From contig CAJXRP010000003.1 in assembly GCA_913060495.1 (NCBI GenBank), positions 124,001-188,000 of the forward strand: a stretch of 64,000 nt of DNA. The letters are read 5' to 3'. Shown here piece after piece: positions 57-47,435 of this stretch. The position numbers were made by a program, and so were the translations under genes. How positions within the stretch are numbered: the stretch's first letter is position 1; the number at the start of each line of letters is the position of its first letter. Source of the DNA: an uncultured Gammaproteobacteria bacterium. Lineage in GTDB: Bacteria > Pseudomonadota > Gammaproteobacteria > Pseudomonadales > Pseudohongiellaceae. The notes below the pieces were generated by a model that ran no database searches, was not told the DNA's origin, and saw nothing but the letters and a program-made list of their open reading frames with translations.

Positions 57-2111
57 CTAGTGTGCAGCACCACCGGTAGGTTGTGCGCCGGGTAATGCCA
101 TCGCGGTAAGCTTTGAGCCGGTCTGCAGGATGATGTACTGATGTCCATCGTGCATCCAAGAGCTCATGCCATAACGGCTTCCTGCTGGCACTTCGATACG
201 ACCAATTTCTGCGCCGGTCTGCTTATCGATGCCGAACAGCAGTGGTGTACCGTCGTGGGCCAGGTCTGAGTAGATCAGCATGTTCTTCGTGGTCACCATT
301 GAAACCGGATTTCCAGTTCCCGTATTGCCAACGTCAATCCCATCCAAAGCAGGATTGTTACGGATGCGGTCAGGCGTCTCACCTGTAGGAATCTGGAAAG
401 CAATCTCACCTGTGTTCATGTCGTAGGCAGTGATATTGCTATACGGTGGTTTCCAATAAGGTAGGCCGGAAGAAAGACGTGGAGGTCTGCCGCCGGGACC
501 ATTTGCATACATCGCAAAAGTTGTTCCTGTTGGGTTAGGAATGCGAGCATCTGCTTCTTCACCAGGAATAACACGCTGCCAGCTACACTGTCTCATTGAA
601 GGCACGTATAGGAAGCCTGTAGTTGGATCGGCGACCGGTGGTGCGTAGATATTTGCGCCGCCGCCATCACCCGGACACATTGCCGAGCTGATCTTGCCTG
701 CTTCATTCGCGGCATGGATTGGCGGATTAAACAGAGGACCCATTTGGTAATTTGCCATCACTTCAAGCGCTTCTCTGCGCAGTTCTGGAGTGAAGTCGAT
801 TAGGTCGTCTTCGCTTATACCCTGCATTTCGAATGGAGGTGGCTTCGTTGGGATAGGCTGTGTAGTCGACAACTTCTCACCAGGCACTTTAGACGCTGGA
901 ACAGCACGATCTTCCATGGGCCAGATTGGCTCGCCGGTCATTCTATCGAATGTGTAGACATAGCCTTGCTTAGTTACCTGAGCAACTGCAGGTACAACGC
1001 CTCTACCAGGGATATTCAAGTCTAGTTGAATCGGCGCGGCAGGGTTGTCGTAATTCCACACATCGTGTTTTACGGTCTGGAAATGCCAGCGTCGCTCACC
1101 AGTTTCGGTATCCAGTGCGATTACACTGGTGCCGAATAGATTGTCACCAGGGCGGAAGCCGCCGTAGTAGTCGATCGTCGGCGGGTTAGTTGGAATGTAG
1201 ACGATATTGTTCTCAGGATCGGCTGTTAGTGGTGCCCAAGACGATACGTCTCCAGTCCACTGCCATGCATCGTTTTCCCAAGTCTCGTGACCGTACTCGC
1301 CCGGCTTTGGAATTACGTTGAACTTCCATTTCAGTGCACCGGTAGTCTTATCGTAAGCGAGGATATCGCCAGGGACGTTCTCTATTCTCGCCTGCAGATA
1401 ACCTTGCTCGGCAGAGTTACCAACGATGATAGTGTCATTCACTACTATTGGTGGTGATGAAGTCGTGATGTAACCAGTCTCTAGTGGAATGCCTTCGTAC
1501 GGATCGTAGGGATGTCCTAGATCAGCAAGCATGTCTACGACACCAGTCTCAGGAAAGCCATCTACAGGCACTTGTCCGCCGAAGCCTTCAAGTGGAGCGC
1601 CGGTTTCGGCATCAAGGGCTACTAGGAAGAAGCCAGGTGTGGAAATATAAACTACGCCCTTGCCGTCTATTCTGGAGTAGCCAATACCTTTGCCGTAGGA
1701 GGCGCGCATGGAGTATTCCCAGCGACCTGTGTTTGGCAAACGATAGGCCCAAAGTGTTTCGCCTGTCTTAGGGTCGATCGCAACGACGTTACGACGGGGA
1801 CCAGAAACGGTGAATAACTTACCGTCTACATAAGTAGGTGTGGAGCGGCCAGCACGGCCATTAAAACTGCTGCCATCCCATTCCCAGGCAACTTCGAGTT
1901 CGTCGAAGTTCTCGGCGGTAATCTCATCGGCTGGGGTGTAACGGGTGTGGGCGTAGTCGCCACCGAGGGTAAACCACTCGGCAGTGTCATCGTTGACTAG
2001 ATTCTGACTCATGCCAATCTGCGGCAAAATGCACAGAACGGCTGCCAAAATGCTTAAACGTGCAAGCATCGATGGCTTTGAGCCTGAATTTATTGAAGAA
2101 GGTGATTCCAT
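57..2111 (-). CDS. PQQ-dependent dehydrogenase (quinoprotein alcohol/glucose dehydrogenase-like beta-propeller), secreted
   Basis: 684 aa ORF with N-terminal signal peptide; repeated propeller motifs (VVAIDPKTGETLW, ALDTETGERRWHFQTVKHDVWNYDNPA, ITAYDMNTGEIAFQIPTGETPDRIRNNP). Confidence 0.92.
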   Translation of the reverse strand: MESPSSINSGSKPSMLARLSILAAVLCILPQIGMSQNLVNDDTAEWFTLGGDYAHTRYTPADEITAENFDELEVAWEWDGSSFNGRAGRSTPTYVDGKLFTVSGPRRNVVAIDPKTGETLWAYRLPNTGRWEYSMRASYGKGIGYSRIDGKGVVYISTPGFFLVALDAETGAPLEGFGGQVPVDGFPETGVVDMLADLGHPYDPYEGIPLETGYITTSSPPIVVNDTIIVGNSAEQGYLQARIENVPGDILAYDKTTGALKWKFNVIPKPGEYGHETWENDAWQWTGDVSSWAPLTADPENNIVYIPTNPPTIDYYGGFRPGDNLFGTSVIALDTETGERRWHFQTVKHDVWNYDNPAAPIQLDLNIPGRGVVPAVAQVTKQGYVYTFDRMTGEPIWPMEDRAVPASKVPGEKLSTTQPIPTKPPPFEMQGISEDDLIDFTPELRREALEVMANYQMGPLFNPPIHAANEAGKISSAMCPGDGGGANIYAPPVADPTTGFLYVPSMRQCSWQRVIPGEEADARIPNPTGTTFAMYANGPGGRPPRLSSGLPYWKPPYSNITAYDMNTGEIAFQIPTGETPDRIRNNPALDGIDVGNTGTGNPVSMVTTKNMLIYSDLAHDGTPLLFGIDKQTGAEIGRIEVPAGSRYGMSSWMHDGHQYIILQTGSKLTAMALPGAQPTGGAAH

Positions 2112-2200
2112 TGTTATAGCCTCATTAGATACAAAATCCAGTGGAGGATAGCATAGGCTATATAGCTAGTGATAAGAGGGATGGTAAGAAATTGCTCAAT

Positions 2201-2246
2201 AAAAAAGGCCGAAAGAATTTAGCATTCTTTCGGCCTTTGTTTTTTC
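2201..2246. terminator. Bidirectional Rho-independent terminator
   Basis: AAAGGCCGAAAGAAT-TTAGC-ATTCTTTCGGCCTTT hairpin flanked by A-tract (left) and T-tract (right); directly downstream of the 2286..4343 minus-strand CDS. Confidence 0.85.
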
Positions 2247-2285
2247 GAGCTTGCTGTCTTTAGAGCAGCTAGATCGAGTTACTCT

Positions 2286-4343
2286 CTAGTGCGCAGCGCC
2301 ACCGGAAGGTTGTGCGCCAGGCATTGCCATTGCAGTAAGCTTTGAGCCTGTCTGTAGGATGATGTACTGATGTCCATCATGCATCCAAGAGCTCATGCCA
2401 TAACGGCTCTGTGCTGGTACTTCGATCTTACCAACTTCTTCGCCGGTCTGCTTATCGATACCGTAGAGCAAGGCAGTAGTGCCATCGGCGGCCATGTCTG
2501 AGTAGATCAGCATGTTCGCTGTAGTCACCATAGTGATTGCATTACCAGTTCCTGTTTCTCCGATATCAATTCCCTCTAGAGCAGGGTTATTGCGGATACG
2601 GTCAGGTGTCTCACCTGTAGGAATCTGGAAAGCAATCTCGCCTGTGTTCATATCGTAAGCAGTGATATTGCTGTACGGCGGCTTCCAGTAAGGAAGGCCT
2701 GAAGAAAGACGCGGTGGTCTTGGGCGAGCGCCATTAGCGTAGGCTGCGAAAGTAGAACCTGTTGGTTGGTCGATGCGAGCATCGGCTTCTTCGCCAGGGA
2801 TAATTCGCTGCCAGCTACAAGCTCTTCTTGATGTTACATAGAGGAAGCCCGTAGTTGGGTCAGCTACTGGTGGGTTATTGATGTTTGCACCACCACCGTC
2901 ACCTGGGCACATAGCAGAGGCTATCTTGCCGGCAGGATCCGAGTCGTGAATGGGTGGATTAAACAAAGGGCCCATGTCGTAGTTAGCCAGCACTTCAAGT
3001 GCTTCGCGACGCAGCTGAGGAGTGAAGTCGATTAGATCTTCTTCGCTCAAACCCTGCATTTCGAAAGCGGGTGGCTTAGTTGGGAAAGGCTGTGTAGCTG
3101 AAAGCTTCTCGCCGGGAACATTAGACGCTGGAACAGCGCGCTCTTCCATTGGCCAGATTGGCTCGCCAGTCATACGATCGAAAGAGTAAACAAAGCCCTG
3201 CTTTGTAACCTGATGTACAGAAGGCACTACACCTCTGCCCGCAATATTCAGGTCTAGCTGAATAGGCGCGGCCGGGTTGTCGTAGTTCCAAACATCATGA
3301 TGCACTGTCTGGAAGTGCCAGCGGCGTTCGCCAGTTTCTGTATCCAGTGCTATCAGGCTAGTACCAAACAGACCATCACCAGGGCGGAAGCCGCCGTAGT
3401 AATCGATCGTTGGTGGGTTAGTTGGAACGTAAACGATGTTGTTCTCAGGGTCAGCTGTTAGCGGTGCCCAAGACGATACGTCGCCAGTCCACTGCCAAGC
3501 ATCGTTTTCCCAAGTCTCATGGCCGTACTCGCCCGGACGTGGAATCACGTTGAATTTCCATTTGAACTCACCAGTAGTCTTGTCGTAGGCCAAGATATCG
3601 CCAGGGATATTCTCGACTCTCGCCTGCAGATAACCTTGCTCGGCAGAGTTACCAACGACGATAGTGTCATTGACCACAATCGGTGGTGATGAAGTAGTAA
3701 TGTAACCAACCTCTAGTGGAATACCTTCGTACGGATCGTAGGGATGTCCCAGATCAGCAAGCATGTCCACGACGCCAGTCTCAGGGAAGCCCTCTACTGG
3801 AACCTGTCCACCGAAGCCCTCGAGAGGTGCGCCAGTTTCGGCATCAAGTGCTACAAGGAAGAAACCAGGTGTAGAGATGTAAACCACCCCTTTACCGTCG
3901 ATACGTGAGTAAGTGATGCCTTTGCCGTAGGAGGCGCGCATGGAGTATTCCCAGCGACCGGTATTCGGCAGGCGGTAGGACCACAAAGTTTCGCCAGTCT
4001 TAGGGTCGATCGCAACTACGTTGCGGCGAGCTCCAGAAACGGTGAATAACTTGCCATCTACATAAGTGGGAGTTGAACGACCTGATTGGCCGCCGAAGCT
4101 GGCGCCATCCCATTCCCAAGCGACTTCGAGTTCGTCGAAGTTCTCAGCCGTAATTTCATCGGCAGGAGTGTAGCGGGTGTGGGCGTAGTCGCCGCCAAGA
4201 GTAAACCACTCGGCAGTGTCGTCTGTGACCAGATTCTGGCTCATGCCAATCTGCGGCAAGATGCCCAGAACGGCGGCCAGACAGCTCATTGTTGCAAGCT
4301 TTCTAGGCTGCGAGCCGAATAGTGTTGAAGGACTTAGTTTCAT
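2286..4343 (-). CDS. PQQ-dependent dehydrogenase, tandem paralogue of 57..2111
   Basis: 685 aa; near-collinear and highly similar to the 57..2111 product over the mature region. Confidence 0.92.
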   Translation of the reverse strand: MKLSPSTLFGSQPRKLATMSCLAAVLGILPQIGMSQNLVTDDTAEWFTLGGDYAHTRYTPADEITAENFDELEVAWEWDGASFGGQSGRSTPTYVDGKLFTVSGARRNVVAIDPKTGETLWSYRLPNTGRWEYSMRASYGKGITYSRIDGKGVVYISTPGFFLVALDAETGAPLEGFGGQVPVEGFPETGVVDMLADLGHPYDPYEGIPLEVGYITTSSPPIVVNDTIVVGNSAEQGYLQARVENIPGDILAYDKTTGEFKWKFNVIPRPGEYGHETWENDAWQWTGDVSSWAPLTADPENNIVYVPTNPPTIDYYGGFRPGDGLFGTSLIALDTETGERRWHFQTVHHDVWNYDNPAAPIQLDLNIAGRGVVPSVHQVTKQGFVYSFDRMTGEPIWPMEERAVPASNVPGEKLSATQPFPTKPPAFEMQGLSEEDLIDFTPQLRREALEVLANYDMGPLFNPPIHDSDPAGKIASAMCPGDGGGANINNPPVADPTTGFLYVTSRRACSWQRIIPGEEADARIDQPTGSTFAAYANGARPRPPRLSSGLPYWKPPYSNITAYDMNTGEIAFQIPTGETPDRIRNNPALEGIDIGETGTGNAITMVTTANMLIYSDMAADGTTALLYGIDKQTGEEVGKIEVPAQSRYGMSSWMHDGHQYIILQTGSKLTAMAMPGAQPSGGAAH

Positions 4344-26446: not shown

Positions 26447-28588
26447 TTGCAGTCCCTATCGAGTAAACAAGCAACAATCAATGATAACGAACCAGCACCC
26501 CGGTTCATTTCCCTCGAAGGCACCGATACTGAGGCCAAGCGGCAACAGCTGTTGGACTATTTTGTCGCTACCTGGGAGCAATATGAGGCGCTTTTCGCCC
26601 CGCTTAAGGATGAAGCCTTGTACGCGAGAGCCGAATCGTTGCGTCACCCATTGATCTTCTATTTCGGGCATACGGCCACTTTCTATGTAAATAAGATGAT
26701 TCTCGCGCAGTTTACTGATGCTCGCGTAGATCCTGAGCTGGAGTCCATGTTCGCCATAGGGGTCGATGAGATGTCTTGGGATGATTTAGATTCCTCTCAT
26801 TATGATTGGCCTACAAGAGAGGTTACTAAGGCATACCGTGACAAGGTTAAGGCGCGAATCTGCGCCTTCATCAAGTCTATGCGGATAACCCTGCCTATAA
26901 CCCAGCAGTGTCCAGCATGGTTGGTCTTGATGGGTATTGAGCACGAACGTATTCATCTGGAAACATCGTCTGTGATCATGCGGATGTTGCCGCTCGATCT
27001 TATCGACAGAGCACGAGCGGAATCTTGGCCGGTTTGCGATGAAGTGGGGCTTGCTTCAGCGGTTGAGTGGTTGCCGATCTCTGCGGCTACGGTAAAGCTG
27101 GGCAAAGTTGACAGTGATCGCAGCTATGGTTGGGATAACGAGTACGGCCACGATGAGCAGAACGTAGAGAAATTCAAAGTCGCGACGACATTGGTCTGCA
27201 ATCAGGAATACCTAGAATTTGTTCAAGCAGGGGGCTACAAAGAGCCTCGCTACTGGACGGCAGAAGGGAAGCAGTGGTTAAGCTACACCCAAGCACGGCA
27301 TCCAAGATTCTGGCGACCCTCACTGAACGGTAAATATGTTCAGCGAAATTTATTTTCAGAGATGTCCCTGCCGATGGATTGGCCCGCCGAGGTAAATTAT
27401 CTAGAGGCGAAGGCCTACTGCAATTGGATGCGGGAGCGCACTGGCGAGCCGGTAAGACTCCCCCTAGAGGCCGAATGGTCTTTGCTGCGCAGTTCAGAAC
27501 TGGGAGCGACTCCTGGTGAGGGGAATATTAATCTGGAACAATATGCCTCGTCTTGTCCGGTGACGGAAAACCGGCAAGGAAGGCTGTATGATGTCACTGG
27601 TAATGTTTGGCAGTGGACAGAATCACCCATCGATGGCTATCCAGGTTTTGCTGTTCATACTTGGTATGACGATTTTTCGACGCCTACTTTCGATGGTAAA
27701 CACAACTTGATCAAGGGAGGCTCCTGGATATCTACGGGAAACGAAACACTTGCTTCATCACGTTACGCATTTCGCCGACACTTTTATCAACACGCAGGAT
27801 TTAGAATGGTTATATCTGAGCAAGAGCCAGAAGAACAGCTACAAGATAACGTATACGAAACAGATGAATTGATCGCGCAGTATTGTGAGTTCCACTACGG
27901 CAGTGACTATTTTTCTGTTAAAAATTTCCCGGTCGCGTGCATACAGACACTTATGGCCCAGGTGCAAGCTAACAGCATTGCTACAGACAGGGCGCTAGAT
28001 CTAGGTTGTGCAGTAGGTCGATCCTCGTTCGAACTGGCGAAGAGTTTTCAGCATGTTGATGCTTTAGATTTCTCTGCGCGCTTCGTACAGCAGGGTGCAA
28101 AACTGCAGGCACATAATCGACTTCGCTATACGGTTCCAGTAGAGGGCGAAATAGTAGAGTATCGCGAAGTTCTGTTGGATAAGTTAGGCTATGCCGATGT
28201 GAAAGATCGAATCAATTTTTTGCAGGGCGATGCTTGTAATTTGAAGCCACAATTCACTAACTACAATGTAGTTTTTGCCGGCAATCTTATTGATCGGCTC
28301 TACGATCCAGCGATGTTTCTAAAAGACATACAGCAACGGATACTTTCGGGTGGATTGCTGGTGTTGACCTCGCCTTACACTTGGCTCGAAGAATATACCG
28401 ACAAAAATAATTGGTTAGGGGGCGTAAAAGTGAATGGTGAGAACTTCAGTACTTTGGACGCACTTAAACAAGAGCTCGCGGACAGCTTTGATTTCGAAGA
28501 AGCTGTAGATGTGCCATTTGTGATACGCGAGACAGCTCGCAAGTATCAGCACACCGTAGCTCAGATGACAATCTGGCGTAAGCACTAG
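26447..28588 (+). CDS. ovoA: 5-histidylcysteine sulfoxide synthase / 4-mercaptohistidine N1-methyltransferase (ovothiol biosynthesis)
   Basis: 713 aa; DinB-like + FGE-sulfatase-like + SAM methyltransferase layout; GIEHERIHLETSSVIMRMLP, DVTGNVWQWTESP, DLGCAVGRSSFELAKSF; TTG start with GGTGG upstream. Confidence 0.92.
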   Translation: MQSLSSKQATINDNEPAPRFISLEGTDTEAKRQQLLDYFVATWEQYEALFAPLKDEALYARAESLRHPLIFYFGHTATFYVNKMILAQFTDARVDPELESMFAIGVDEMSWDDLDSSHYDWPTREVTKAYRDKVKARICAFIKSMRITLPITQQCPAWLVLMGIEHERIHLETSSVIMRMLPLDLIDRARAESWPVCDEVGLASAVEWLPISAATVKLGKVDSDRSYGWDNEYGHDEQNVEKFKVATTLVCNQEYLEFVQAGGYKEPRYWTAEGKQWLSYTQARHPRFWRPSLNGKYVQRNLFSEMSLPMDWPAEVNYLEAKAYCNWMRERTGEPVRLPLEAEWSLLRSSELGATPGEGNINLEQYASSCPVTENRQGRLYDVTGNVWQWTESPIDGYPGFAVHTWYDDFSTPTFDGKHNLIKGGSWISTGNETLASSRYAFRRHFYQHAGFRMVISEQEPEEQLQDNVYETDELIAQYCEFHYGSDYFSVKNFPVACIQTLMAQVQANSIATDRALDLGCAVGRSSFELAKSFQHVDALDFSARFVQQGAKLQAHNRLRYTVPVEGEIVEYREVLLDKLGYADVKDRINFLQGDACNLKPQFTNYNVVFAGNLIDRLYDPAMFLKDIQQRILSGGLLVLTSPYTWLEEYTDKNNWLGGVKVNGENFSTLDALKQELADSFDFEEAVDVPFVIRETARKYQHTVAQMTIWRKH

Positions 28589-29779: not shown

Positions 29780-32700
29780 CTAGCTGAGTTCGGCGCTTCC
29801 CGTTGCATCTTCATCTTTCTGTAACTTCTCTAATACACGGGCTACTGCCTCTGGCGAGCCAGTATTTCTAGCAATGAGGTTGTAGACGACAGGCACTACA
29901 AACAATGTCGTTATGGTTGTCATCAATACACCAGAGAAAATAACCGTACCTAGCAATATCCGGCTTTCAGAACCTGCCCCCGTCGCTAGGATTAAGGGTA
30001 TTGCGCCTACTAAGGTAGACAAGGCTGTCATCAATACTGGGCGCAGTCTCAGGTCACAGGCTTCGATTAATGCCTCGCGAAATTCTTTGCCCTGATCCCG
30101 CAATTGGTTCGCAAATTCGACGATCAGAATTCCATTCTTGCTAGCTATGCCAACTAGAATTACCAAACCGATGTTTGAATAGATGTTCAGTGAATTGTCG
30201 GTGAGTAGTAAGCCTATCAGTGCGCCTAATACAGCAAGAGGCACCGTGGTCATGATTATTATGGGGTGTATGAAACTCTCAAATTGAGCTGCCAACACGA
30301 GAAACACAACCAACAATGCCAATAGGAAGATTGTGGTCAAGCCGCCTGCGGAACTCTTGAGATCCAAAGACTCTCCCTTGTAATCAATCTGTGCATATTC
30401 AGGCAGCTCTTCAGCGACTACTGTTTCTAGAAACGTTAAAGCTGTGTCCAGATCAACGCCTGGTGCCAGCCCGCCGGAGATTGTAATCGAGCGAATTCGA
30501 TTGTAGCGATTTAACGAAGTCGGCCCCGAAGAGTTCTCTATCTGAATCACATTAGCCAGTGGAATCAATGCTCCAGTGGTGTCTGAGCGCACATAGATGT
30601 TTCTAAGATCATCCGGCGATGCGCGTTGTGAATCTTCGGCCTGCAAGATCACATCATATTCTTCACCTTGATCGGCGAAGGTGGTGACTCTGCTTTCGCT
30701 CATCATCGCCTGCAATGTGCTGCCTATGCCTTGAATGCTAATTCCGAGGTCCGCCGCGCGCACCTTATCGACCGTAACCGAGAGGCTAGGCTTTGTTTCG
30801 TTGTAGTCAGAATCTAGCCGTCCGAAAAGTTCGCTCTGTTGTGCCCGAGCGAGCACTGTGTCGCGCCAGCCAACTAGTTCTTCATAGCTTCTGCCGCCGA
30901 TCACGAATTGTACTGGTTGTCCTCCACCACCACGGGAGAGGCCGGAACGCATAAACATAAATGCCCTAATACCCGGTATTTCATTCCATTTTCCAGTAAG
31001 TTCGCGCATCACCGTAGCGGTATCTTTCTCTCGTTCGTCCCATGAAGGCAGAGAAATAATCGTCATGCCGCTATTTACTCCACCGCCGCCGCCCCAGCCT
31101 GGCGTCATGGTTACAATATTTTGTACCTCGCCCTCGTCTATATAGGGGAGGACTTGATCCTGAATAGAGTTCACCTGCTGTTCCATATAATTCAAGTTAG
31201 CACCTTCGGGACCCTGAATTCTGGCAAAGATTACGCCCTGGTCTTCACTAGGGGCGAACGCCGTAGGCAGTTGTTGAAACAGCAGATAGATTGCGCCAAA
31301 AACAAGAATAAGGGAGGCAACTATTAGCCAGCTGAAACGTAAGCAGACCTCTAGCGCGTTGTGGTAGCCACGTTGCAGCCATCTAAAGAATACATCCACG
31401 TGATGAGTTAGCCAGCTTTCATGGGCATGGGAAGTTAATAATTTTGAACTCATCATTGGCGTTAACGATAATGCAAGAACACTCGAGATTACGACCGCGC
31501 CACAAATTGTGATGGCGAGTTCATAGAACAGGATTCCGAGGTTTCCCTCGAGGAACAATACTGGAACGAATACAGCGATAAGCACTGCTGTCGTCGAAAT
31601 CACTGCGAAGGCAACCTGTCGCGTGCCATTGTAAGCAGCCAGTAGTGGGGGTTCGCCACCTTCCACGCGGCGCTGAATATTCTCCAGCACAACGATGGAG
31701 TCGTCGACTATCAGGCCAACGCATAACACTAGAGCTAGAAGGGTAATTAAGTTTATAGAGAGATCAAAAGCTGAGATCACGATAAAGGAAGAGAGTAGGC
31801 AAACGGGAATAGTAATAACGGGTATTAACATCACTCGAAATGAACCGAGGAACATGTAGATAACGAGACTAACCAAGCCCATCGTCATGAAAATTGTTGA
31901 GTATACCGATGAGATAGCGTTTTCTATGAACTCAGCATCGCTGGAAGAAACGACCAGATCCATATGCTCGGGTAGGGTTAGTCGGACTTGCTCTGCTAGA
32001 GCTTCAGTACCGCGCAACACCGAGAGGCTATTCGCCGTTGACTGCTTGATGATTCCTATACCAACAGCTTCAACTCCATTGCCTTTGTAAATAGAGCGTT
32101 CGTTTGCTGAACCTAGCTCTACGCGTGCAACCTCTCCAAGGGTGACAAGAAAATTGTCATTGCCGCGGGCAATAACAAGTCGGGAGAAGTCTTCGGCGCT
32201 CTGAAATATTCTTTCAACTCTAACCGAAAATTCCATATTTGCCGATTCGATGCGTCCTGCCGGAAGTTCTATGTTCTCGCGGCGCAGAGCGTTGGCAACG
32301 TCGATAACTGTTAGTCCACGAGCGGCGAGGGCGACACGGTCGAGCCAGACCCGCATAGCAAAACCACCGTTGCCGCTTACGCTTACATTAGATACGCCGT
32401 CGAGGACTGCAAATTGATCGACTATGTAGCGGTTTGCATAGTCGTTTAGTTCCAAATAGGACATCTGGCTACTTACCAGATTGAAATACTGAATAGGGCG
32501 CGCATCACTATCTGCTTTAGCAATCTGAGGAGGATCTACTTCTTCGGGTAGGCTTCGCACCACGCGGGAGATTTTGTCGCGGATATCATTGGCTGCCACT
32601 TCGATGTCGGTACCAACTCTGAACTCAACAGAGATTCTTGAGCTGCCATCTACACTGGATGAGTTAATCGCTTCGACGCCATCGATGCCATTGATCTGGT

Positions 32701-32905
32701 CCTCTATCAGCTCGGTTACTTGGGTTTCAATAATGTCAGCCGAAGCTCCAGGGTAGCTGGTGCTTATGGAAACAACGGGAGGGCTAGTATCAGGATATTC
32801 GCGCAGTGGTAGCTGATTAAAAGCCATGATTCCAAAGGCGATAAGCATAAGGCTAAGAACTGTGGCAAAGACTGGTCGCTTGACCGAGACATCGGAAAGA
32901 ATCAT
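29780..32905 (-). CDS. RND efflux transporter permease (AcrB/HAE1 family)
   Basis: 1041 aa; VKRPVFATVLSLMLIAFG, YPGASADIIETQVTELIEDQINGIDGV, LVLCVGLIVDDSIVVLENI. Confidence 0.95.
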   Translation of the reverse strand: MILSDVSVKRPVFATVLSLMLIAFGIMAFNQLPLREYPDTSPPVVSISTSYPGASADIIETQVTELIEDQINGIDGVEAINSSSVDGSSRISVEFRVGTDIEVAANDIRDKISRVVRSLPEEVDPPQIAKADSDARPIQYFNLVSSQMSYLELNDYANRYIVDQFAVLDGVSNVSVSGNGGFAMRVWLDRVALAARGLTVIDVANALRRENIELPAGRIESANMEFSVRVERIFQSAEDFSRLVIARGNDNFLVTLGEVARVELGSANERSIYKGNGVEAVGIGIIKQSTANSLSVLRGTEALAEQVRLTLPEHMDLVVSSSDAEFIENAISSVYSTIFMTMGLVSLVIYMFLGSFRVMLIPVITIPVCLLSSFIVISAFDLSINLITLLALVLCVGLIVDDSIVVLENIQRRVEGGEPPLLAAYNGTRQVAFAVISTTAVLIAVFVPVLFLEGNLGILFYELAITICGAVVISSVLALSLTPMMSSKLLTSHAHESWLTHHVDVFFRWLQRGYHNALEVCLRFSWLIVASLILVFGAIYLLFQQLPTAFAPSEDQGVIFARIQGPEGANLNYMEQQVNSIQDQVLPYIDEGEVQNIVTMTPGWGGGGGVNSGMTIISLPSWDEREKDTATVMRELTGKWNEIPGIRAFMFMRSGLSRGGGGQPVQFVIGGRSYEELVGWRDTVLARAQQSELFGRLDSDYNETKPSLSVTVDKVRAADLGISIQGIGSTLQAMMSESRVTTFADQGEEYDVILQAEDSQRASPDDLRNIYVRSDTTGALIPLANVIQIENSSGPTSLNRYNRIRSITISGGLAPGVDLDTALTFLETVVAEELPEYAQIDYKGESLDLKSSAGGLTTIFLLALLVVFLVLAAQFESFIHPIIIMTTVPLAVLGALIGLLLTDNSLNIYSNIGLVILVGIASKNGILIVEFANQLRDQGKEFREALIEACDLRLRPVLMTALSTLVGAIPLILATGAGSESRILLGTVIFSGVLMTTITTLFVVPVVYNLIARNTGSPEAVARVLEKLQKDEDATGSAELS

Positions 32906-32921
32906 TTTCTATCTCCTCGGC

Positions 32922-34055
32922 TTAAGTATTGTCGCCAGCAATGATGGGCTTGCCGGGATAGGCGGTTCTGCCTTGAGTTGGCGCAGTGGAATCTGTAGTG
33001 CGCACTGTCAGCCCTGGGCGCATTCGAATAACACCTTCGCTAACTATCTGTTCGCCGATTTCTAAGCCGGAAGTAATTTCAACTAGTCCATCACGGCGAC
33101 GCCCTAGCGCGACAGCTTTCCGCATAACCTTGTTTTCCGCATCAACGGCATAAACATACTGCTGTCCCTGACTTGCAATAACTGATCGTTCTGGTGCGAC
33201 CATCACAGATTGTTCATTCAATGCTAGTGAGACGGTCATTAGCATGCCGGGGCGAAGCAGGGAATCTGGGTTTGCGATCAGCGCTCTTACGGAAACACCT
33301 CGTGTTACTGGATCGATTCGGGAGCCAACCACTCGAATTTCGCCTTCAAAAATTTGCTCGTCATAGACGATGCTCTTGGCTTGAATTATTTGTCCGACGC
33401 CTACATCGGCGAGATAAATTTCAGGAATGGTGAAATCCAGCTTGATGATCGACACATCATCGAGGGTAGTTATGACGGTGCCAGGGGTCAGCAAACTGCC
33501 TTCGCTGACATTTCTAAATCCGAGGAAGCCACTGAAAGGTGCTCTGACAAGACGATCATCCATGTCCACTAGCACTCCTTCTAATCGGGCGCGCGCAGTT
33601 TCAAGTGCGGTGCGAGCCTGGTCGAACTCGTTGTCTGCAACGAGATTATTGTTGGAGAGGTTTTCCAATCGATTGAGCTGCCGCTGTGCTTCGTCTACAT
33701 TTGCCTGTGCTTCAGCAAGTCGACTTGCTTCCGCTGCATTGGTCAATTCAACGAGGATGTCACCTCGTTCTACAAACTCACCATCTTGAAAACCAATCTT
33801 GCTGACAGTTTCCGAAACAGCCGTCGTGAGATTCACTGATTCATTTGCCACCGTGGTGCCTACCGATTCGACTTCGTCGGCAATCACTTGCAAGACTACA
33901 GGTGTAAGGGTGACTAACGGCGAGCTGCCACCAAACCTGCTGAAGCCGCTAGCCCCAGAAGGTTCTTCAGTAACTTTGGCGAAAACCATATAGGACAGCA
34001 GAGAAGCGCCCATAACTATTATTATCATTACAGGGTGTCGCGTTAGAAATTTCAC
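32922..34055 (-). CDS. RND efflux periplasmic adaptor (membrane fusion protein)
   Basis: 377 aa; alpha-hairpin region EAQANVDEAQRQLNRLENL, APFSGFLGFRNVSEGSLLTPGTVITTLDD. Confidence 0.92.
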   Translation of the reverse strand: MKFLTRHPVMIIIVMGASLLSYMVFAKVTEEPSGASGFSRFGGSSPLVTLTPVVLQVIADEVESVGTTVANESVNLTTAVSETVSKIGFQDGEFVERGDILVELTNAAEASRLAEAQANVDEAQRQLNRLENLSNNNLVADNEFDQARTALETARARLEGVLVDMDDRLVRAPFSGFLGFRNVSEGSLLTPGTVITTLDDVSIIKLDFTIPEIYLADVGVGQIIQAKSIVYDEQIFEGEIRVVGSRIDPVTRGVSVRALIANPDSLLRPGMLMTVSLALNEQSVMVAPERSVIASQGQQYVYAVDAENKVMRKAVALGRRRDGLVEITSGLEIGEQIVSEGVIRMRPGLTVRTTDSTAPTQGRTAYPGKPIIAGDNT

Positions 34056-34443: not shown

Positions 34444-35358
34444 TTAAGGTGTAACTGTTACCGGTACGTAGGCGTTAGACCAGCAGCATTGATTGTCGAA
34501 CTTGCTGTCTGGTGCTTCGAAGTTATCGACACGTAGTCGAATAACGTACTCGCCAGGTTCCCAGAAAGTAGCTTCGGTTTGTACCGTGGTCCACTCGCTC
34601 ATGCCTTCGCTAGATTTTGCTCGCTCACGGCCGGTTATTTTCTCAACCGAGAAGTCAGGTCTAGCGGGGCCTTGATGCATGACCCACTCTGTACCGAGAG
34701 GAAAGATCGTTTGCTCGAGCTCAGGATATTGATCCCGATCACCGCGATCTTGTGCGTAAGCAGTCAAGGTCACAGGCTTTCCAACCGATGCTGTCATTTT
34801 CTCAGCGTAGATGCCTTCACGATCCGTGGACACATCGCCATTCATGTCGAATCGAATGCTTGGATTTAGTGAGCCAAGTGCTTGTGCGCCGGCACTCATC
34901 TCGTATGCCGTCGATGTGGTTCGCCCAGGCACTGAATAGTTAAAGCCCTCGTGCTTTATAGTCCACACCACTTCGGTGTCAGCCATCTCTGCTGGCACCG
35001 TTACCGCGAACACTCCGCGCTCTTGGATTCCAACAAAGCCAGGTCGGCGATATACGGGAAAGTGCGTAGGCTGTCCTCCATCGAACATGGGTGGTTCGAT
35101 GAAGTTGTTAGGGCCGAGTGGAATGTCGACGATCTCTTCGCGGTTTCGATTTACGAAGCCGAAGATCATTGTCACAGAGTTGTCTGCATTCTTTATCCAG
35201 CCGTTGAACATGGGGCCTATTAAGTCGCCGCTGGCTTTGCGTGACGCTAAAGGGTAGTCGCGCAAATGAGTCGGCAGCTGAGCATAGAGTGGTGCTGCTA
35301 TTAATCCCATGAGGGCAACAGCAAGGACTCGGGTAGCTATTTGTCTAGTCTTTTTCAT
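34444..35358 (-). CDS. Secreted hypothetical protein, partner of the haem/copper protein
   Basis: 304 aa with signal peptide; ATGA overlap with the stop of the upstream CDS. Confidence 0.7.
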   Translation of the reverse strand: MKKTRQIATRVLAVALMGLIAAPLYAQLPTHLRDYPLASRKASGDLIGPMFNGWIKNADNSVTMIFGFVNRNREEIVDIPLGPNNFIEPPMFDGGQPTHFPVYRRPGFVGIQERGVFAVTVPAEMADTEVVWTIKHEGFNYSVPGRTTSTAYEMSAGAQALGSLNPSIRFDMNGDVSTDREGIYAEKMTASVGKPVTLTAYAQDRGDRDQYPELEQTIFPLGTEWVMHQGPARPDFSVEKITGRERAKSSEGMSEWTTVQTEATFWEPGEYVIRLRVDNFEAPDSKFDNQCCWSNAYVPVTVTP

Positions 35359-36701
35359 TGGCCTCCTCCTGATCCAGCTACAGTTCTTTGCTCGCGTTCT
35401 TCTTGTTCAGCAAGCATCTTCTCGTAGCCATCGTCGTCTAGGTGAGTGACAGCAATCCAGGCGTGTGACATCTCATCTGTAGTTCTTTGGCCTGCACCAA
35501 CCCATTGATCTGGATCTGGGTTGCGTGGGTTAGCCGCAGTGTTGTCGAACCATGAAGTGAGGATGATCGTTGCGCCGGCTGGAATAAGCGGCTGAAAACC
35601 ATCTTCATAGGTATGGCTGTGGTTCCAACCAGCGTTCCAGTTGGAAGCTTGGCTAAGCACTTCGCGTCGACCAGATTCAGGATCGAATACTTCCATGGAC
35701 ATCGCTACGCCACGTAGGTGCAGATGCGGCTGCCAGCTGTCGATACGAACCGGGTGGTCGAAAGAGTGAAAACCCTGAGTCATTAGCTTGCCGTGAGGAG
35801 GTATCAGGTAGTCGCCGCCACCATCTAGCATGTAAAGGCGTAGGTCCTGAGGAAAAGTCTCCGCTACATCAAACTCATCTTCTTCATCGTAATACCAGAT
35901 ACCGACCGTTACTTGGTCATCAGGCACTGCATTTCCATCTGGGTAGTAGTGAATGCTCCAGCTTACCTTGGAGTTTTCAGGTACGGTTCTGCAGGCACCA
36001 TCAGGAACCTTCTCGCCGAGTTTGCCATAGGCGTACTCGGATAGGCGGCCATAGGTTTGCCATTCACCGTTCTCATCTTGCGTTAGGAAGTGAGAGTTTG
36101 CGTGGTGAGTAGAGCCATGCGCTGCTGCCGAAGGCAGAGTCTCAACCGCCTTGATGCAGCGGGCCTCAGTGATTCCGGATGGAACCTCGGGCTCCCACCA
36201 CAGATCTTGACCTGCCGCGGGAACATCCCATGGCGTTGACTGGATGATATGGTCTGGTTGACCTAGCTCGTCGGCTAAGCGCCATTCGCCGACAACTGGA
36301 TATTCCTTAGCGGCCGGTAGATCTTCGAGGTTACCCATTGGGGAGCCTGCGTCTACCCATGCCACTAGCGTGTTGATGTCTTCATCAGACATGCGCCAGT
36401 CATCTTTAAGTTCTTGAACGCCGATATCATGATCGTACTGGTAAGGAGGCATCTCACGCTCTAATACCTTCAAGCGAATCAGAGGTGCCCAAGGACGAAT
36501 CTCTTCATAGCTAGTGAAAGACATAGGGCCAATCTGGCCTGGTTGGTGACAGATTTGGCAGTTGTCTTGGATGATTCTTGATACTTCTTTAGCGTAGGTT
36601 GGGTGTTCACCCGCAGCTTCTTGGGCACTTGAAAGTGCCGGCACCATTGCTAAGGCTGAAAATAGCCCGAGTAAGTTAGTTTTTTTCATGCTCCTCTCCA
36701 A
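35355..36701 (-). CDS. Secreted protein with c-type haem motif and PHM-like copper type II monooxygenase-like C-terminus
   Basis: SRIIQDNCQICHQPGQIGPMSFTSYEEIRPWAPLI (CxxCH); STHHANSHF, SFDHPVRIDSWQPHLHLRGVAMSMEVF, ILTSWFDNTAANPRNPDP. Confidence 0.82.
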   Translation of the reverse strand: MERSMKKTNLLGLFSALAMVPALSSAQEAAGEHPTYAKEVSRIIQDNCQICHQPGQIGPMSFTSYEEIRPWAPLIRLKVLEREMPPYQYDHDIGVQELKDDWRMSDEDINTLVAWVDAGSPMGNLEDLPAAKEYPVVGEWRLADELGQPDHIIQSTPWDVPAAGQDLWWEPEVPSGITEARCIKAVETLPSAAAHGSTHHANSHFLTQDENGEWQTYGRLSEYAYGKLGEKVPDGACRTVPENSKVSWSIHYYPDGNAVPDDQVTVGIWYYDEEDEFDVAETFPQDLRLYMLDGGGDYLIPPHGKLMTQGFHSFDHPVRIDSWQPHLHLRGVAMSMEVFDPESGRREVLSQASNWNAGWNHSHTYEDGFQPLIPAGATIILTSWFDNTAANPRNPDPDQWVGAGQRTTDEMSHAWIAVTHLDDDGYEKMLAEQEEREQRTVAGSGGGQ

Positions 36702-36803
36702 TTAAAAACAAATGTTATTTCTGCTGTGCCACTGCTACGTGGCTTCTTTAGGTTTCTTTACGTATTTTCTGCAAGTAGTGTATTTCGCTGGGCAGTGCTT
36801 TTA

Positions 36804-36817
36804 TTGATCTAAATCAG
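36804..36817. promoter_or_regulatory. FNR/ANR-like box upstream of the haem/copper gene
   Basis: TTGATctaaATCAG (minus strand CTGATttagATCAA), about 103 bp upstream of the start at 36701. Confidence 0.55.
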
Positions 36818-37377: not shown

Positions 37378-37881
37378 ATGAGAATAATGAAGATCAACCT
37401 TAGGGAATTGTTTGTGGCGGCGTGTTTATGCCTGCTTTCATTCGCTGCCTCTGCGCAGTCAGAGAATCCATTTATCGGAACCTGGGATCTCGATGCGGCT
37501 AATTCCGATTTCGGTGATGCACCGGTTCCAAACGACATGATTCGAACCTATATAGAGACAGGTGGCGGCGGCTACATGTATCTGCTGGTAACTATAAATC
37601 AAGACGGTTCCATCGGTGGTAGCTCAGCTAGCTATCGATACGATGGCGCAAGCAATTCAATTGCTACAGTCGGCGGAGCTGGCGCTCAAACTACTATTTC
37701 CTACTTTCAGGTAAATGGCAGGACAGTGGAATACACCATCAGAAACGCTGGCAGAACCTCACAGATTGGCGCGAAAACACTCTCGCCGGACAGTAGGGTG
37801 CTGACTATAGTCATCCAGAACATTAACGCAGAAGGTGGTAATAGCAGCAGTCAAATCCTGCGCTTCATCCGACGTACATAA
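37378..37881 (+). CDS. Secreted hypothetical protein, lipocalin-like
   Basis: Signal peptide then NPFIGTWDLDAANSDFGDAPVPNDMIRTYIETGGG. Confidence 0.6.
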   Translation: MRIMKINLRELFVAACLCLLSFAASAQSENPFIGTWDLDAANSDFGDAPVPNDMIRTYIETGGGGYMYLLVTINQDGSIGGSSASYRYDGASNSIATVGGAGAQTTISYFQVNGRTVEYTIRNAGRTSQIGAKTLSPDSRVLTIVIQNINAEGGNSSSQILRFIRRT

Positions 37882-38121
37882 ATGAAGACGGTTACTGGGC
37901 TCCAGAGGCCTAAATATAGAGGCTAGAGTGAAAATACAGTAAAGAGTTTTTGCTCTGGCCTTTTCCTAGAATATCTCCCTACAGCCACCAAATTTCCTCG
38001 GATTGACGCTTGCAATCTGTCGATTAACTCTCCGCTATCCGGCTAGAATAGCAGGCATTGGACAATGCTCTGATTTGGATATACTGTGCATGCTTTCTGC
38101 ACATAATAAGGAGAATTTTCA

Positions 38122-38628
38122 ATGAGCAAGCCTAAAATCGCCGGGATCGCAGTCGGCCTATTATTACTGGTCGTGGTGGTAGGTTGGGCGTCCACTGCTC
38201 CCTATCTCAGCAATTCAGGACTCGGCCGCACGCCGGGCATCTTCATAGGTGGAACGATCACTCCAGCTCCGGCGGACTTCTCGCCTCTTAATGAGAGTGT
38301 TCGCGGTCCTATGATGTTCAAGCTCAGCGGTTTTCCGCCATTCGTTAATTACCTCTCTTGGGTAGGTATGCCAGACGGCGTCATCTCGGCGACCCGTCCG
38401 GACAATGGCTATTGGGAGCGACGCGTCAACGCAAATGGCGGTGATGGCTTGTTACGCATAGGCGAGGCGACCTATGAGATGACGGCTAACGAGGTTTTTG
38501 GTGAGGAACGCCTTGAGATGATGAGACTGTGGGCAGCCAAATCGGGCGGAAGATCGCTTGATGACCCAGCTTACCCAGGCTCTGAGCCGCTTCGCGAATG
38601 GAAGGTATTCTTCTGGACTCCTCGCTAG
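38122..38628 (+). CDS. Hypothetical protein with N-terminal TM anchor
   Basis: 168 aa; AGIAVGLLLLVVVVGWAS; SD AAGGAG upstream. Confidence 0.6.
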   Translation: MSKPKIAGIAVGLLLLVVVVGWASTAPYLSNSGLGRTPGIFIGGTITPAPADFSPLNESVRGPMMFKLSGFPPFVNYLSWVGMPDGVISATRPDNGYWERRVNANGGDGLLRIGEATYEMTANEVFGEERLEMMRLWAAKSGGRSLDDPAYPGSEPLREWKVFFWTPR

Positions 38629-39902: not shown

Positions 39903-41846
39903 ATGATAATAATAAAACGACTAGTTTCACCAATCCTTCTAAGCATCGCTGCGCTTGTCTGTGTTCCTTTGGCTCTGGGCCAAACTGGCACTAGCGTAGA
40001 GCAGGGGGACTGGCCCTACTATCACGGCAGCGAGACTTCCCTGCGCTATTCACCGCTGGATCAAATAAACGCAGATAATGTTGCTGATCTGGAGATAGCA
40101 TGGCGATTCTCCACGGAAAATTTTGGCCCCTCGGCGGATTTCGTCAATCCATCCACACCACTAGAAGTTGATGGTGTTTTGTACGCGAATATCGCCAGCA
40201 CCCGAAACGTGGTGGCCCTAGATGCGAAGAATGGCCAGGTACTGTGGCTGTGGAGATCTCAAGAAGGCGATCGATTCGATCATGCGCCTCGCAAGGGCGC
40301 AGGCCGAGGTGTAGCGTTCTGGCGCGATGGTGACGAGGCGCGGGTAATAGATGTCACGCCTGGATATCAGTTGGTGTCACTGGATGCAGAGACCGGTATT
40401 CCCGATCCCGCTTTTGGCGACAATGGCATCGTGGATCTGTATCTGGGCTTACGTAATGCCGATGATCCACGCTATCCCTATCCGGATATTGGTCTTTCCG
40501 CACCACCCTTAGTGATGAATGATGTCATCGTGGTAGGGGCGGCGCACAGAACCGGCGGTCGACCTCGATCGAAGTTCAACACCAAAGGCGATATACGCGG
40601 TTTTGATGTGCACACCGGTGAGCTACTTTGGACTTTTCATACTATTCCAGAACGCGGTGAGGTTGGCTTTGAAACCTGGCTAGACGAGGGTGTGGAATTC
40701 ACCGGCAATTCGGGTGTTTGGGCTCCCATATCCGGTGATTCAGAATTGGGTATTGTTTATCTACCCGTAGAAGATCCCACGGGTGACTATTATGGAGGCG
40801 ACCGACCGGGAGCCAATCTGTTTTCCAGTGGCCTAGTGGCGCTTGATGTTAGAACTGGTGAGCGCAAATGGCACTATCAGTTTATCCATCACGATATCTG
40901 GGATTGGGATGTTCCCTCTGCGCCTTTAATCACCGATCTACCTAACGGGCGTAAAGTGGTTATGTCGGTCACTAAGCAATCTTGGGTGTACGCCTTCGAC
41001 AGAGTAACCGGCGAGCCTATATGGCCGATTGTCGAGCGAGAAGTTCCTGCGGGAGACGTGCCGGGTGAATGGTATTCTCCGACTCAGCCTTTCCCGACTC
41101 ATCCGGCTCCATTCGAGAGGCAGGGGTTCACCGAAGATGATCTGATAGATTTTACGCCGGAGCTTCGTGCCCTGGCGCTGGAGGCAGTCAAAGATTTTCG
41201 TCTCAGCCCCACCATGTATACGCCACCATCGCTAGCTAATGCGCCGGACGGTACACGTGGTCTGCTTAGCCTGCCTTCCTCCACGGGTGGTTCCAACTGG
41301 GAGGGCTCAGCTCTCGATCCAGAGACTGGAATTCTGTACGTGCCATCGAGGACTCAGCTACAGGTACTAGCGCTGGCAAAGAATGAGGAGTCCGACATCG
41401 ACCTAAGTCAGGGCTTCGGTGTTCGCGTACCTCGTATACAAGGGCTAGAAGTTGTTAAGCCACCCTACGGTCGTATCACTGCGATCGATATGAACTCGGG
41501 GGATCATCTCTGGATGATTGCTAATGCCGACACGCCGGATCGTATAAAGAATCACGCGCTGCTGGAAGGTGTTGATTTGCCGCGCACAGGTGTGCCGACA
41601 CGATCAGGCATCTTTGTGACGAAGAGCCTGCTGTTCCAAGCTGAAGGCACTGGCGCGGCTGGCGCTAGTCCGATCTTCCGAGCTATCAATAAAGATACCG
41701 GTGAGATTGTTGCCGAAATTGACTTGCCGTTTAATCAAACAGGCTTGCCGTTTACTTACGAGCACGAAGGCAAGCAATACGTGGCGATGTTCATGGGTGG
41801 TGCAGGAAATCCTGCGGAGCTAGTAGCGTTCGCTTTGCCTGATTAA
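39903..41846 (+). CDS. PQQ-dependent dehydrogenase, secreted
   Basis: 647 aa; signal peptide; WPYYHGSETSLRYSPLDQINADNVADLEIAWRF, HYQFIHHDIWDWDVPSAPLI. Confidence 0.92.
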   Translation: MIIIKRLVSPILLSIAALVCVPLALGQTGTSVEQGDWPYYHGSETSLRYSPLDQINADNVADLEIAWRFSTENFGPSADFVNPSTPLEVDGVLYANIASTRNVVALDAKNGQVLWLWRSQEGDRFDHAPRKGAGRGVAFWRDGDEARVIDVTPGYQLVSLDAETGIPDPAFGDNGIVDLYLGLRNADDPRYPYPDIGLSAPPLVMNDVIVVGAAHRTGGRPRSKFNTKGDIRGFDVHTGELLWTFHTIPERGEVGFETWLDEGVEFTGNSGVWAPISGDSELGIVYLPVEDPTGDYYGGDRPGANLFSSGLVALDVRTGERKWHYQFIHHDIWDWDVPSAPLITDLPNGRKVVMSVTKQSWVYAFDRVTGEPIWPIVEREVPAGDVPGEWYSPTQPFPTHPAPFERQGFTEDDLIDFTPELRALALEAVKDFRLSPTMYTPPSLANAPDGTRGLLSLPSSTGGSNWEGSALDPETGILYVPSRTQLQVLALAKNEESDIDLSQGFGVRVPRIQGLEVVKPPYGRITAIDMNSGDHLWMIANADTPDRIKNHALLEGVDLPRTGVPTRSGIFVTKSLLFQAEGTGAAGASPIFRAINKDTGEIVAEIDLPFNQTGLPFTYEHEGKQYVAMFMGGAGNPAELVAFALPD

Positions 41847-45077: not shown

Positions 45078-47435
45078 TTGAACAATTCCTCCCAATACCC
45101 CAAGCCTCGTTTTCTTTCTATTGTTATAGGCATCATAGGTGCTCTCTTGCTGTGGATGGGAGTCTTGCTGCTGGGGGCGGGCGGTTCGCTCTATTATGCT
45201 TTCGCTGGGATTGTGCTTTTAGTCAGTGCCGTCTTTCTTTTTCGGGGAGATGTGCGGGGTGCACAGTTGTACGGAGCTTTCCTGCTGTTTACCTATATCT
45301 GGGCTTTGTATGAATCGGGTCTGGATGCCTGGGCGCTGATGCCACGTGTCGCCATGTTCAGCGTGCTAGGTCTCTGGTTCCTCCTGCCTAGAGTTCGGAG
45401 AGGCTTGTTGCAAGCGGAACCAGCGCCCCTGTTTCAGCAACGATCAACGCAGGCAACATTAGGTGGCTTAGCGCTGCTCATCGTCGCCTTGTTTGTCAGT
45501 AGAGGGTATGAAGTTGGTATGCCTAGCGCGGCTGGAACCGGACAGGTAAATAATGCGACGGGAGATTGGGCTAATTATGGCTCCTCCAAAACGGGCACTC
45601 GCTATGCCGCAACCGATCAAATAAACATTGAGAATGTAGGCCAATTAGAAAGGGCGTGGGAAATTCGTACTCGCGTACCCGGGGCATTCAAAGGTACGCC
45701 AATCCAGATAGATGACGGCCTGTATATGTGCACGGGCCAGAATATAATTCTTGCTCTGGATCCGGACACCGGTGAGGAGCGCTGGCGTTTCGACCCTGAT
45801 CTTCAATCGCCGAAGATAGGCTTCTGGGATACCTGTCGCGGTGTGACTTACTACGACAATCCAGAGCCAAATTCGGCGGCCGAGTGTGCAGAACGTATCT
45901 TTACCGCGACGACCGATGCTCGCTTGATAGCGGTAGACAAGAACACTGGCCTGCCCTGCAGTGGTTTCGGCGTCAACGGTGAGATTAGTTTGCTAGATGG
46001 CATGGGCGAAGTTGTTCCGGGTTTCTATTTCGTGACTTCACCACCCACTATAGCCAATGACGTATTGGTTCTAGGTGGCTGGGTGCTGGACAATCAGATG
46101 ACGCAAGAACCATCTGGTGTAGTGCGCGGATTCAATCCTATGACGGGTGAGCTGGTTTGGGCTTGGGATATGGGGCGTGAAGATCGAACTGGTTTGCCGG
46201 AGCCTGGCGAGAACTATACGCGGGGAACGCCGAATGTGTGGAGCCTGACTAGTGCCGATGAAGAGCTTGGTCTTATCTATGTGCCAACAGGCAATGCTAC
46301 TCCAGATTATTTCGGCGGACACCGCAGCGAAGCCATGGAGAAATACGCTAGCTCCATCATTGCACTCGATGCGCGAACCGGTCGAGTTAGATGGAGTTTT
46401 CAAACAACGCATCACGATATCTGGGACTATGATGTGCCCGCGCAGCCGACGTTAGTAGATATTCCTGTTGATGGTGTGATTCGTAAGGCCGTTGTCGTCC
46501 CTACCAAGCGCGCAGAAATTTTTCTTCTCGATAGAGAGACGGGCGAACCACTTGCTGAGGTGGCAGAACTGCCGACACCACAGACAGATATTCCAGAAGA
46601 CTTCACTAACCCGACTCAACCTTTCTCGGTGGGCATGCCTTCCTTTGCACAAGAGCGGCTAACCGAAGCTGACATGTGGGGCATCACGCCATTCGATCAA
46701 GCAGCCTGCAGACTGCAGTTCAAGCGCATGCGCTATGAGGGCCCTTTGACGCCGCCAACTACGGGGTACGGTTCTCTGTACTATCCAGGTGTTGCCGGTG
46801 GAATGAACTGGGGCAGTGTTGCCGTGGATGAGGTTAATCATCTAATGGTGGTTAACACCATGAACAATCCCTCGGTGGTTCGTCTGATACCTAGAGAAGA
46901 TGTTAGGGAAGGTGAAGGATTTGGTATCGGTGGTGCGCAGGCTGGCACTCCCTATGCGGTTTTTTCTTTCTTCTTTCTCTCGCCAATATTCGCACCCTGC
47001 ATTGAACCACCCTATGGCGAGATGGCCGTAGTTGATTTGGCATCTCAGGAATTATTGTGGAGACGGCCACTCGGTACGGCTAAGGAGCAAGGCCCTTTAG
47101 GCATTCCTAGCAGATTGCCTCTGCCTATGGGTATGTTCTACAACGCTGGTTCAATAGTCACTGGCGGTGGTTTAATCTTTAATGCCGGCGTAGTGGATAG
47201 CAAAGCCCGTGCTATAGATGTTCTCACTGGCGAGGAAGTGTGGACCGACGGCCTACCCGGATCATCGACAGCGACTCCGATGACTTACGTAAGCCCGACT
47301 ACGGGTAAGCAGTATGTCATCGTTACTGTAGCCGATGGCGGTGGTGAGCTGCAGCTCGAGGCGGCAGTTGACGACGATGTTGAAACGGGAGATGTGCCAG
47401 GTGGCTATGTGATTGCTTATAGCTTAGCTGACTAA
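45078..47435 (+). CDS. Membrane-bound PQQ-dependent dehydrogenase, glucose/quinate dehydrogenase type
   Basis: 785 aa; N-terminal multi-TM domain plus propeller (NYGSSKTGTRYAATDQINIENVGQLERAWEIRT); TTG start after AGGAGA SD. Confidence 0.88.
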   Translation: MNNSSQYPKPRFLSIVIGIIGALLLWMGVLLLGAGGSLYYAFAGIVLLVSAVFLFRGDVRGAQLYGAFLLFTYIWALYESGLDAWALMPRVAMFSVLGLWFLLPRVRRGLLQAEPAPLFQQRSTQATLGGLALLIVALFVSRGYEVGMPSAAGTGQVNNATGDWANYGSSKTGTRYAATDQINIENVGQLERAWEIRTRVPGAFKGTPIQIDDGLYMCTGQNIILALDPDTGEERWRFDPDLQSPKIGFWDTCRGVTYYDNPEPNSAAECAERIFTATTDARLIAVDKNTGLPCSGFGVNGEISLLDGMGEVVPGFYFVTSPPTIANDVLVLGGWVLDNQMTQEPSGVVRGFNPMTGELVWAWDMGREDRTGLPEPGENYTRGTPNVWSLTSADEELGLIYVPTGNATPDYFGGHRSEAMEKYASSIIALDARTGRVRWSFQTTHHDIWDYDVPAQPTLVDIPVDGVIRKAVVVPTKRAEIFLLDRETGEPLAEVAELPTPQTDIPEDFTNPTQPFSVGMPSFAQERLTEADMWGITPFDQAACRLQFKRMRYEGPLTPPTTGYGSLYYPGVAGGMNWGSVAVDEVNHLMVVNTMNNPSVVRLIPREDVREGEGFGIGGAQAGTPYAVFSFFFLSPIFAPCIEPPYGEMAVVDLASQELLWRRPLGTAKEQGPLGIPSRLPLPMGMFYNAGSIVTGGGLIFNAGVVDSKARAIDVLTGEEVWTDGLPGSSTATPMTYVSPTTGKQYVIVTVADGGGELQLEAAVDDDVETGDVPGGYVIAYSLAD

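Follow-up and report, generated by a model that had tools for sequence, protein, structure and literature searches.

A two-gene locus of the window, by which we mean the whole 64,000-nucleotide stretch of DNA that was analysed, encodes an enzyme of the PHM/dopamine beta-hydroxylase (DBH) type with a cytochrome c built into its N terminus. Sequence comparison and structure modelling confirm that this putatively exported protein has the copper fold of that class, which includes the hormone-modifying copper hydroxylases of animals, and six predicted copper ligands. The gene overlaps that of a secreted partner and lies downstream of a conserved FNR box. Our favoured reading, which we consider probable, is that of a periplasmic copper monooxygenase that uses its own cytochrome c as reductant instead of ascorbate and that is used at low oxygen. 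The enzyme extends a known class by a novel form and does not found a class of its own.

The gene pair

The locus consists of two minus-strand open reading frames of 444 and 304 amino acids, called the enzyme and the partner below (Table 1). The first-pass annotation had given the enzyme 448 residues. Both reading frames are correctly placed, but this length results from a TTG start at 36701, whereas an ATG at 36689 (MKKTNLL...) gives 444 residues. The ATG, which is preceded by a good ribosome site, GGAGAGGAGC, is the better start. The ATGA overlap between the two genes is as previously described, with the partner ATG at 35358 overlapping the enzyme stop. Like the enzyme, the partner begins with what was judged by eye to be a Sec-type signal peptide.

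Table 1. Features of the enzyme-partner locus and a neighbouring gene, in positions of the window
Feature	Position	Strand	Basis or conservation
Cytochrome c / PHM-DBH-like copper monooxygenase gene (predicted)	35355..36689	-	444 aa from ATG; ORF, profile, AF2, Foldseek
Sec signal peptide of enzyme, ~residues 1-22, ...ALSSAQEA (putative)	36624..36689	-	read from sequence by eye
Haem c motif C44-Q-I-C47-H48 (CQICH)	36546..36560	-	invariant in 43/43 aligned members
M80 (REMPP), proposed distal haem ligand	36450..36452	-	invariant in 43/43; ligand role inferred
H195-H196, predicted CuH ligands	36102..36107	-	align with DBH HH pair; H195 43/43, H196 41/43
H247, predicted CuH ligand (IHYYP)	35949..35951	-	aligns with DBH VHYH; 43/43
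H322-x-H324, predicted CuM ligands	35718..35726	-	align with DBH HTH; each 39/43
M407, predicted CuM ligand (DEM)	35469..35471	-	42/43
ATGA stop/start overlap, enzyme/partner (translational coupling)	35355-35358	-	sequence
Secreted partner gene, 304 aa, two Ig/PKD-like beta-sandwich domains	34444..35358	-	ORF, AF2, conserved neighbour
-10 element TACACT, 21 nt after FNR box	36777..36782	-	spacing kept in most box-bearing orthologues
FNR/ANR box CTGATTTAGATCAA	36804..36817	-	kept, with one mismatch or fewer, in 24 of 60 orthologous upstream regions
PQQ-dependent dehydrogenase	39903..41846	+	Pfam PQQ E 1.3e-170; recurrent neighbour family

A PHM/DBH-type copper fold fused to cytochrome c

Searches with the single enzyme sequence gave no Pfam match above the cut-off (only sub-cut-off cytochrome c matches), nothing decisive in NCBIfam, and no match in the PDB. 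Since such searches are nearly blind here, an alignment profile was needed to reveal the fold. We aligned 43 relatives (A1), which are the basis of all enzyme column counts, and the resulting profile matches human DBH (4zel) with an E value of 6.5e-5. Five ligands are in register in this alignment, three of them for CuH (the HH pair and H247) and two for CuM (the HxH). The sixth, M407, lies outside the DBH-aligned stretch and was recognised from its DEM motif together with the order of the ligands.

An AlphaFold (AF2) model of the enzyme (mean pLDDT 87.1, pTM 0.83) was then compared with PDB entries by using Foldseek. DBH was the top match (E 9.9e-14) and PHM was next (~1e-11), with a probability of 1.00, on structural alignments with 11-14% identity and a modest TM-score of ~0.45 on the query. 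Furthermore, a paralogue in the same genome (L124:14143-15843) passes the Pfam model Cu2_monoox_C (PF03712), scoring 26.0 against a cut-off of 23. All six ligands are kept in the 36 closest homologues and in 20 of the 22 family genes of the host genome. The predicted protein thus shows two features of the copper type II monooxygenases (PHM/DBH), the two-domain fold and the six-ligand set. These results bear out the His-rich PHM-like domain of the first-pass annotation.

The CxxCH cytochrome-like N terminus proposed earlier is likewise recovered, as CQICH with M80 downstream. This is the pattern of a class I-like monohaem cytochrome c, and it is invariant among the aligned relatives. We regard the domain as real; its Pfam Cytochrome_CBB3 score of 20.8 lies below the cut-off of 27.

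A predicted class II FNR promoter

The box in the window, TTGATctaaATCAG at 36804-36817, is centred 121 nt upstream of the enzyme ATG, and the closest orthologues carry CTGATTTAGATCAA at 121-126 nt from the enzyme start. As a single site counted in the window alone it is unconvincing, given that the window holds 8 sites with one mismatch or fewer versus 3.2 expected. Among 60 distinct orthologous upstream regions, such a box occurs in 24 and is absent from the other ~60%, compared to its presence in 2.8% of random 300-nt windows (binomial P ~1e-21, with relatedness ignored). In most of the 24 box-bearing orthologues, the box is also followed after exactly 21 nt by TACACT or by a hexamer resembling it, whereas of the 22 boxes that precede other genes only one has a -10 element at this spacing. 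The host genome encodes one Fnr (NCBIfam PRK11161, 262 versus a cut-off of 228) whose N-terminal cysteine cluster is CSSCRLNELC.

From this footprint we conclude that the FNR box is real and has a class II layout, with a box and -10 spacing that recur far beyond chance. As in class II FNR-activated promoters, a TTGAT-N4-ATCAA box near -41 is combined with a -10 element at the matching fixed spacing and with an Fnr that has an N-terminal cysteine cluster. Unlike the usual promoters of this class, which serve anaerobic respiration, it would govern an enzyme that presumably consumes O2. No class II box/-10 layout was found at the other family genes of the host genome, and the window copy therefore appears to be the family member kept for low oxygen. 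An FNR/ANR-like box and an oxygen-regulated periplasmic oxidoreductase had both been suggested from the sequence alone; the geometry in orthologues and the fnr gene uphold the first, and these together with the ligands, the haem motif, and the gene pairing argue for the second.

Expansion of the family and diverged paralogues

The host, which is described as a marine-type bacterium, has 22 to 23 family matches. Within its taxonomic family, matches are present in 80 of 99 genomes, usually with 10 to 20 scored copies and with up to 40 first-look candidates per genome, part of which were scored. An even sample of Gammaproteobacteria outside this family yielded a match in only 1 of 113. The enzyme family is therefore hugely expanded in the host's bacterial family and nearly absent from other Gammaproteobacteria. 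Relatives are also present in Gemmatimonadota and Acidobacteriota genomes, again in many copies. Because the Gemmatimonadota sequences nest among gammaproteobacterial ones in our tree, transfer between these lineages is suggested.

Some paralogues depart from the architecture of the window enzyme. In a "half-site" clade (support 100/99), RxN replaces the CuM HxH, while the haem c motif and most CuH ligands are kept. Members include L119:10778-12517 and L126:6229-7941 (host genome C23 and C2) and sequences from L044, L079, L086, and L110. The exceptions to ligand conservation among the 43 aligned relatives, including the four without HxH, fall in this clade, which has probably changed function. 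Another gene (L121:15471-17426, G000:C6) fuses a PHM-like copper domain to TPR repeats without a haem motif, and it shares its contig with another family gene. A further group (G000:C32, C2, C3:102184, C10, and C17) shares the cytochrome c and PHM core with the window enzyme, but has an extra N-terminal AhpC/Redoxin-like domain and lacks a partner gene of its own.

Proposed mechanism

If the enzyme is a haem-fed monooxygenase, it would be exported by Sec and would acquire its haem at C44/C47/H48, while M80 would provide the second axial ligand. Electrons may reach the haem from the periplasmic cytochrome pool or from a PQQ dehydrogenase, and would then move on to CuH (H195, H196, H247). With copper presumed to occupy both sites, CuM (H322, H324, M407) would bind O2 and hydroxylate a small organic substrate at one of its C-H bonds. 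By feeding the copper sites, the fused haem would therefore fill the role that ascorbate has in animals. The co-translated secreted partner may assist the enzyme, and its likeliest tasks are to present the substrate or to load copper. Fnr would activate the pair at low oxygen, which would therefore make this copy the low-oxygen member of ~22.

A different electron route would make the protein a periplasmic dehydrogenase or electron-transfer protein rather than an oxygenase, with the copper sites passing substrate electrons to the haem. The haem domain could accept electrons as well as donate them, and activation by Fnr would suit an O2-free function. Moreover, the half-site clade keeps the haem and most CuH ligands after loss of CuM, and electron transfer without O2 chemistry may therefore be possible in the family. 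However, the CuM ligands are intact in the window copy and in all its close relatives, and the fold family of PHM, DBH, and tyramine beta-hydroxylase is known for O2-dependent hydroxylases. We therefore regard this reading as unlikely.

The monooxygenase that we favour has the two-domain fold of DBH and PHM (copper type II, ascorbate-dependent; Pfam Cu2_monooxygen / Cu2_monoox_C), the same ligand sets (HH + H, then HxH + M, arranged along the chain as in those enzymes), and likewise a secreted or lumenal location. It differs in that a fused N-terminal monohaem cytochrome c would replace the ascorbate supply, in its low (11-14%) identity, in the replacement of PHM residues R240, N316, and Y318, and in its co-translated separate partner, FNR control, and bacterial expansion. 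A c-type haem also feeds a copper site in cytochrome c-linked copper nitrite reductases and in LPMO systems with cytochrome domains, but these have the cupredoxin or LPMO copper fold, which is unrelated to the PHM fold seen here. A literature search, mostly outside the subscription journals, turned up no account of a cytochrome c-PHM family in bacteria, which is weak evidence of absence.

Gene neighbourhoods and a PAM-like alternative

Among 96 neighbourhoods of enzyme genes, recurrent families include PQQ dehydrogenases (21) and NHL propellers (14). Both are present in a sister operon of the host (G000:C34), whose order is enzyme, partner, secreted 358-aa protein, NHL propeller, and PQQ dehydrogenase. 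The PQQ dehydrogenase gene listed in Table 1 is the nearest homologue of the one in this operon (77% identity) and is located 3.2 kb from the window enzyme locus on the opposite strand; we tentatively view its product as a possible pathway partner. Five or six of the 15 NHL genes are within ~6 kb of a family gene, versus ~1 expected. PQQ dehydrogenases near family genes number 5 of ~30 versus ~2 expected, which is a weak excess. Both expectations come from simple arithmetic with a near-family-gene zone of roughly 6.7% of the genome.

The excess of NHL genes near family genes fits a PAM-like scheme, in which the family would hydroxylate N-acylglycine/peptidylglycine-type substrates and a PAL-type NHL lyase would split the product (amidation or N-dealkylation). 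PAL-related NHL propellers (3fvz E 2e-26) follow enzyme and partner in G000:C34, L084, L088, L089, L091, and L092. In addition, two redoxin-cytochrome c-PHM genes (L124:9036-15846, G000:C32) have R and Y at the places of PHM R240 and Y318 and adjoin a PAL-like NHL propeller with DGY and a conserved His, which makes this locus the best candidate in the host genome for a bacterial amidation-like pair. The window copy, however, has Q320, H409, and W411 where PHM has its peptide-carboxylate-binding residues R240, N316, and Y318, and 36 of the 43 homologues agree with it at each of these places. Peptidylglycine is therefore an unlikely substrate of this copy. PAL-like genes were found only beside paralogues, and the DNA surrounding the window enzyme showed no NHL gene. 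Even in the sister-operon propellers, the third zinc His of PAL is missing and a His stands in place of its catalytic Tyr. On account of these replaced residues and the missing zinc His, we set amidation aside for the window copy, a reading that we consider quite improbable. The lyase of methylguanidine demethylation is reported to share no sequence homology with PAL (PMC12508155).

Several other genes recur near family members or within the window. An unnamed secreted protein of ~380 aa is encoded directly 3' of enzyme and partner in eight relatives (for example, L043:2304-3518, L044:8392-9564, and L050:8362-9483). A secreted "GQPDLQGVW" family (L118:8395-9471 and homologues), which has no Pfam or NCBIfam name, is also recurrent beside the enzyme. 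The 3.6-Mb host genome has approximately 30 PQQ-dehydrogenase-like genes. The window contains four of these, at 57-4343, 39903-41846, and 45078-47435, beside other oxidoreductases (GMC at 43214).

The secreted partner

An AF2 model based on an alignment of partner homologues (A2; pLDDT 87.0) is all-beta with two sandwich domains, and 17 of 35 homologues have a weak PKD match. A fold search returned generic Ig/beta-sandwich matches only (TM ~0.25), and thus no function can be read from the partner fold. Among 60 relatives with at least 65% identity to the enzyme and room for a partner, the partner gene is within 1.5 kb in 48. The other 12 are without one, and the partner is therefore not obligatory. 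It also sits beside the enzyme in 16 of 19 and 12 of 13 members of more distant groups, where three loci counted as lacking a partner do have one, at a greater distance upstream and ahead of two enzyme genes in tandem. An ATGA, GTGA, or TTGA start/stop overlap is present in 32 of 50 close pairs. In the host genome, every one of the 11 partner-family genes is next to an enzyme gene. Pairing, which the first-pass annotation had named as a check, is thus conserved across three phyla; its authoring model would have abandoned the proposal if copper ligands were absent and the partner was not conserved, and the data contradict both.

It is very doubtful that enzyme and partner instead bind or oxidise copper at low oxygen (as a chaperone or cuprous oxidase): a vicinal cysteine pair of the partner, C291-C292, is nearly invariant, and an RND efflux pair is encoded directly 3' of the partner gene (29780-34055), but RND genes do not recur as neighbours of the enzyme, its ligands match those of the hydroxylases, and the presence of ~20 diverged paralogues in each genome speaks for diversification of substrates.

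Wider significance

The copper monooxygenase could be one part of a lineage-specific periplasmic oxidation toolkit, a proposal that we offer only tentatively. Each genome of the bacterial family would encode some 10 to 40 diverged PHM-type hydroxylases fed by haem c. Many of these would have a secreted partner of their own, and several would share operons with PAL-like propellers and PQQ dehydrogenases. Jointly, these proteins might act outside the cytoplasm on a variety of dissolved organic molecules, which they would hydroxylate, split, and oxidise, and Fnr would reserve one copy for low oxygen. If so, a PHM-class system would run on respiratory electrons rather than on ascorbate.

PHM/DBH-type enzymes have been studied almost only in animals, with ascorbate as the electron source, and bacterial relatives that have cytochrome c built in would reveal how this chemistry proceeds without it. 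The fused enzyme would also be a single-chain system in which to watch electron transfer among haem, CuH, and CuM. That the family has expanded in one lineage suggests that many periplasmic oxidations are still unexplored, and control of an O2-using enzyme by Fnr would yield a clear, testable prediction on low-oxygen conditions.

Two further observations concern the window itself. Two small secreted or membrane proteins with no family name (37378-38628) are conserved beside close orthologues of the enzyme. Finally, a gene at 26447-28588 encodes a DinB, FGE-sulfatase, and methyltransferase protein, which is the architecture of the ovothiol synthase OvoA, and is followed by a class I/II aminotransferase gene.
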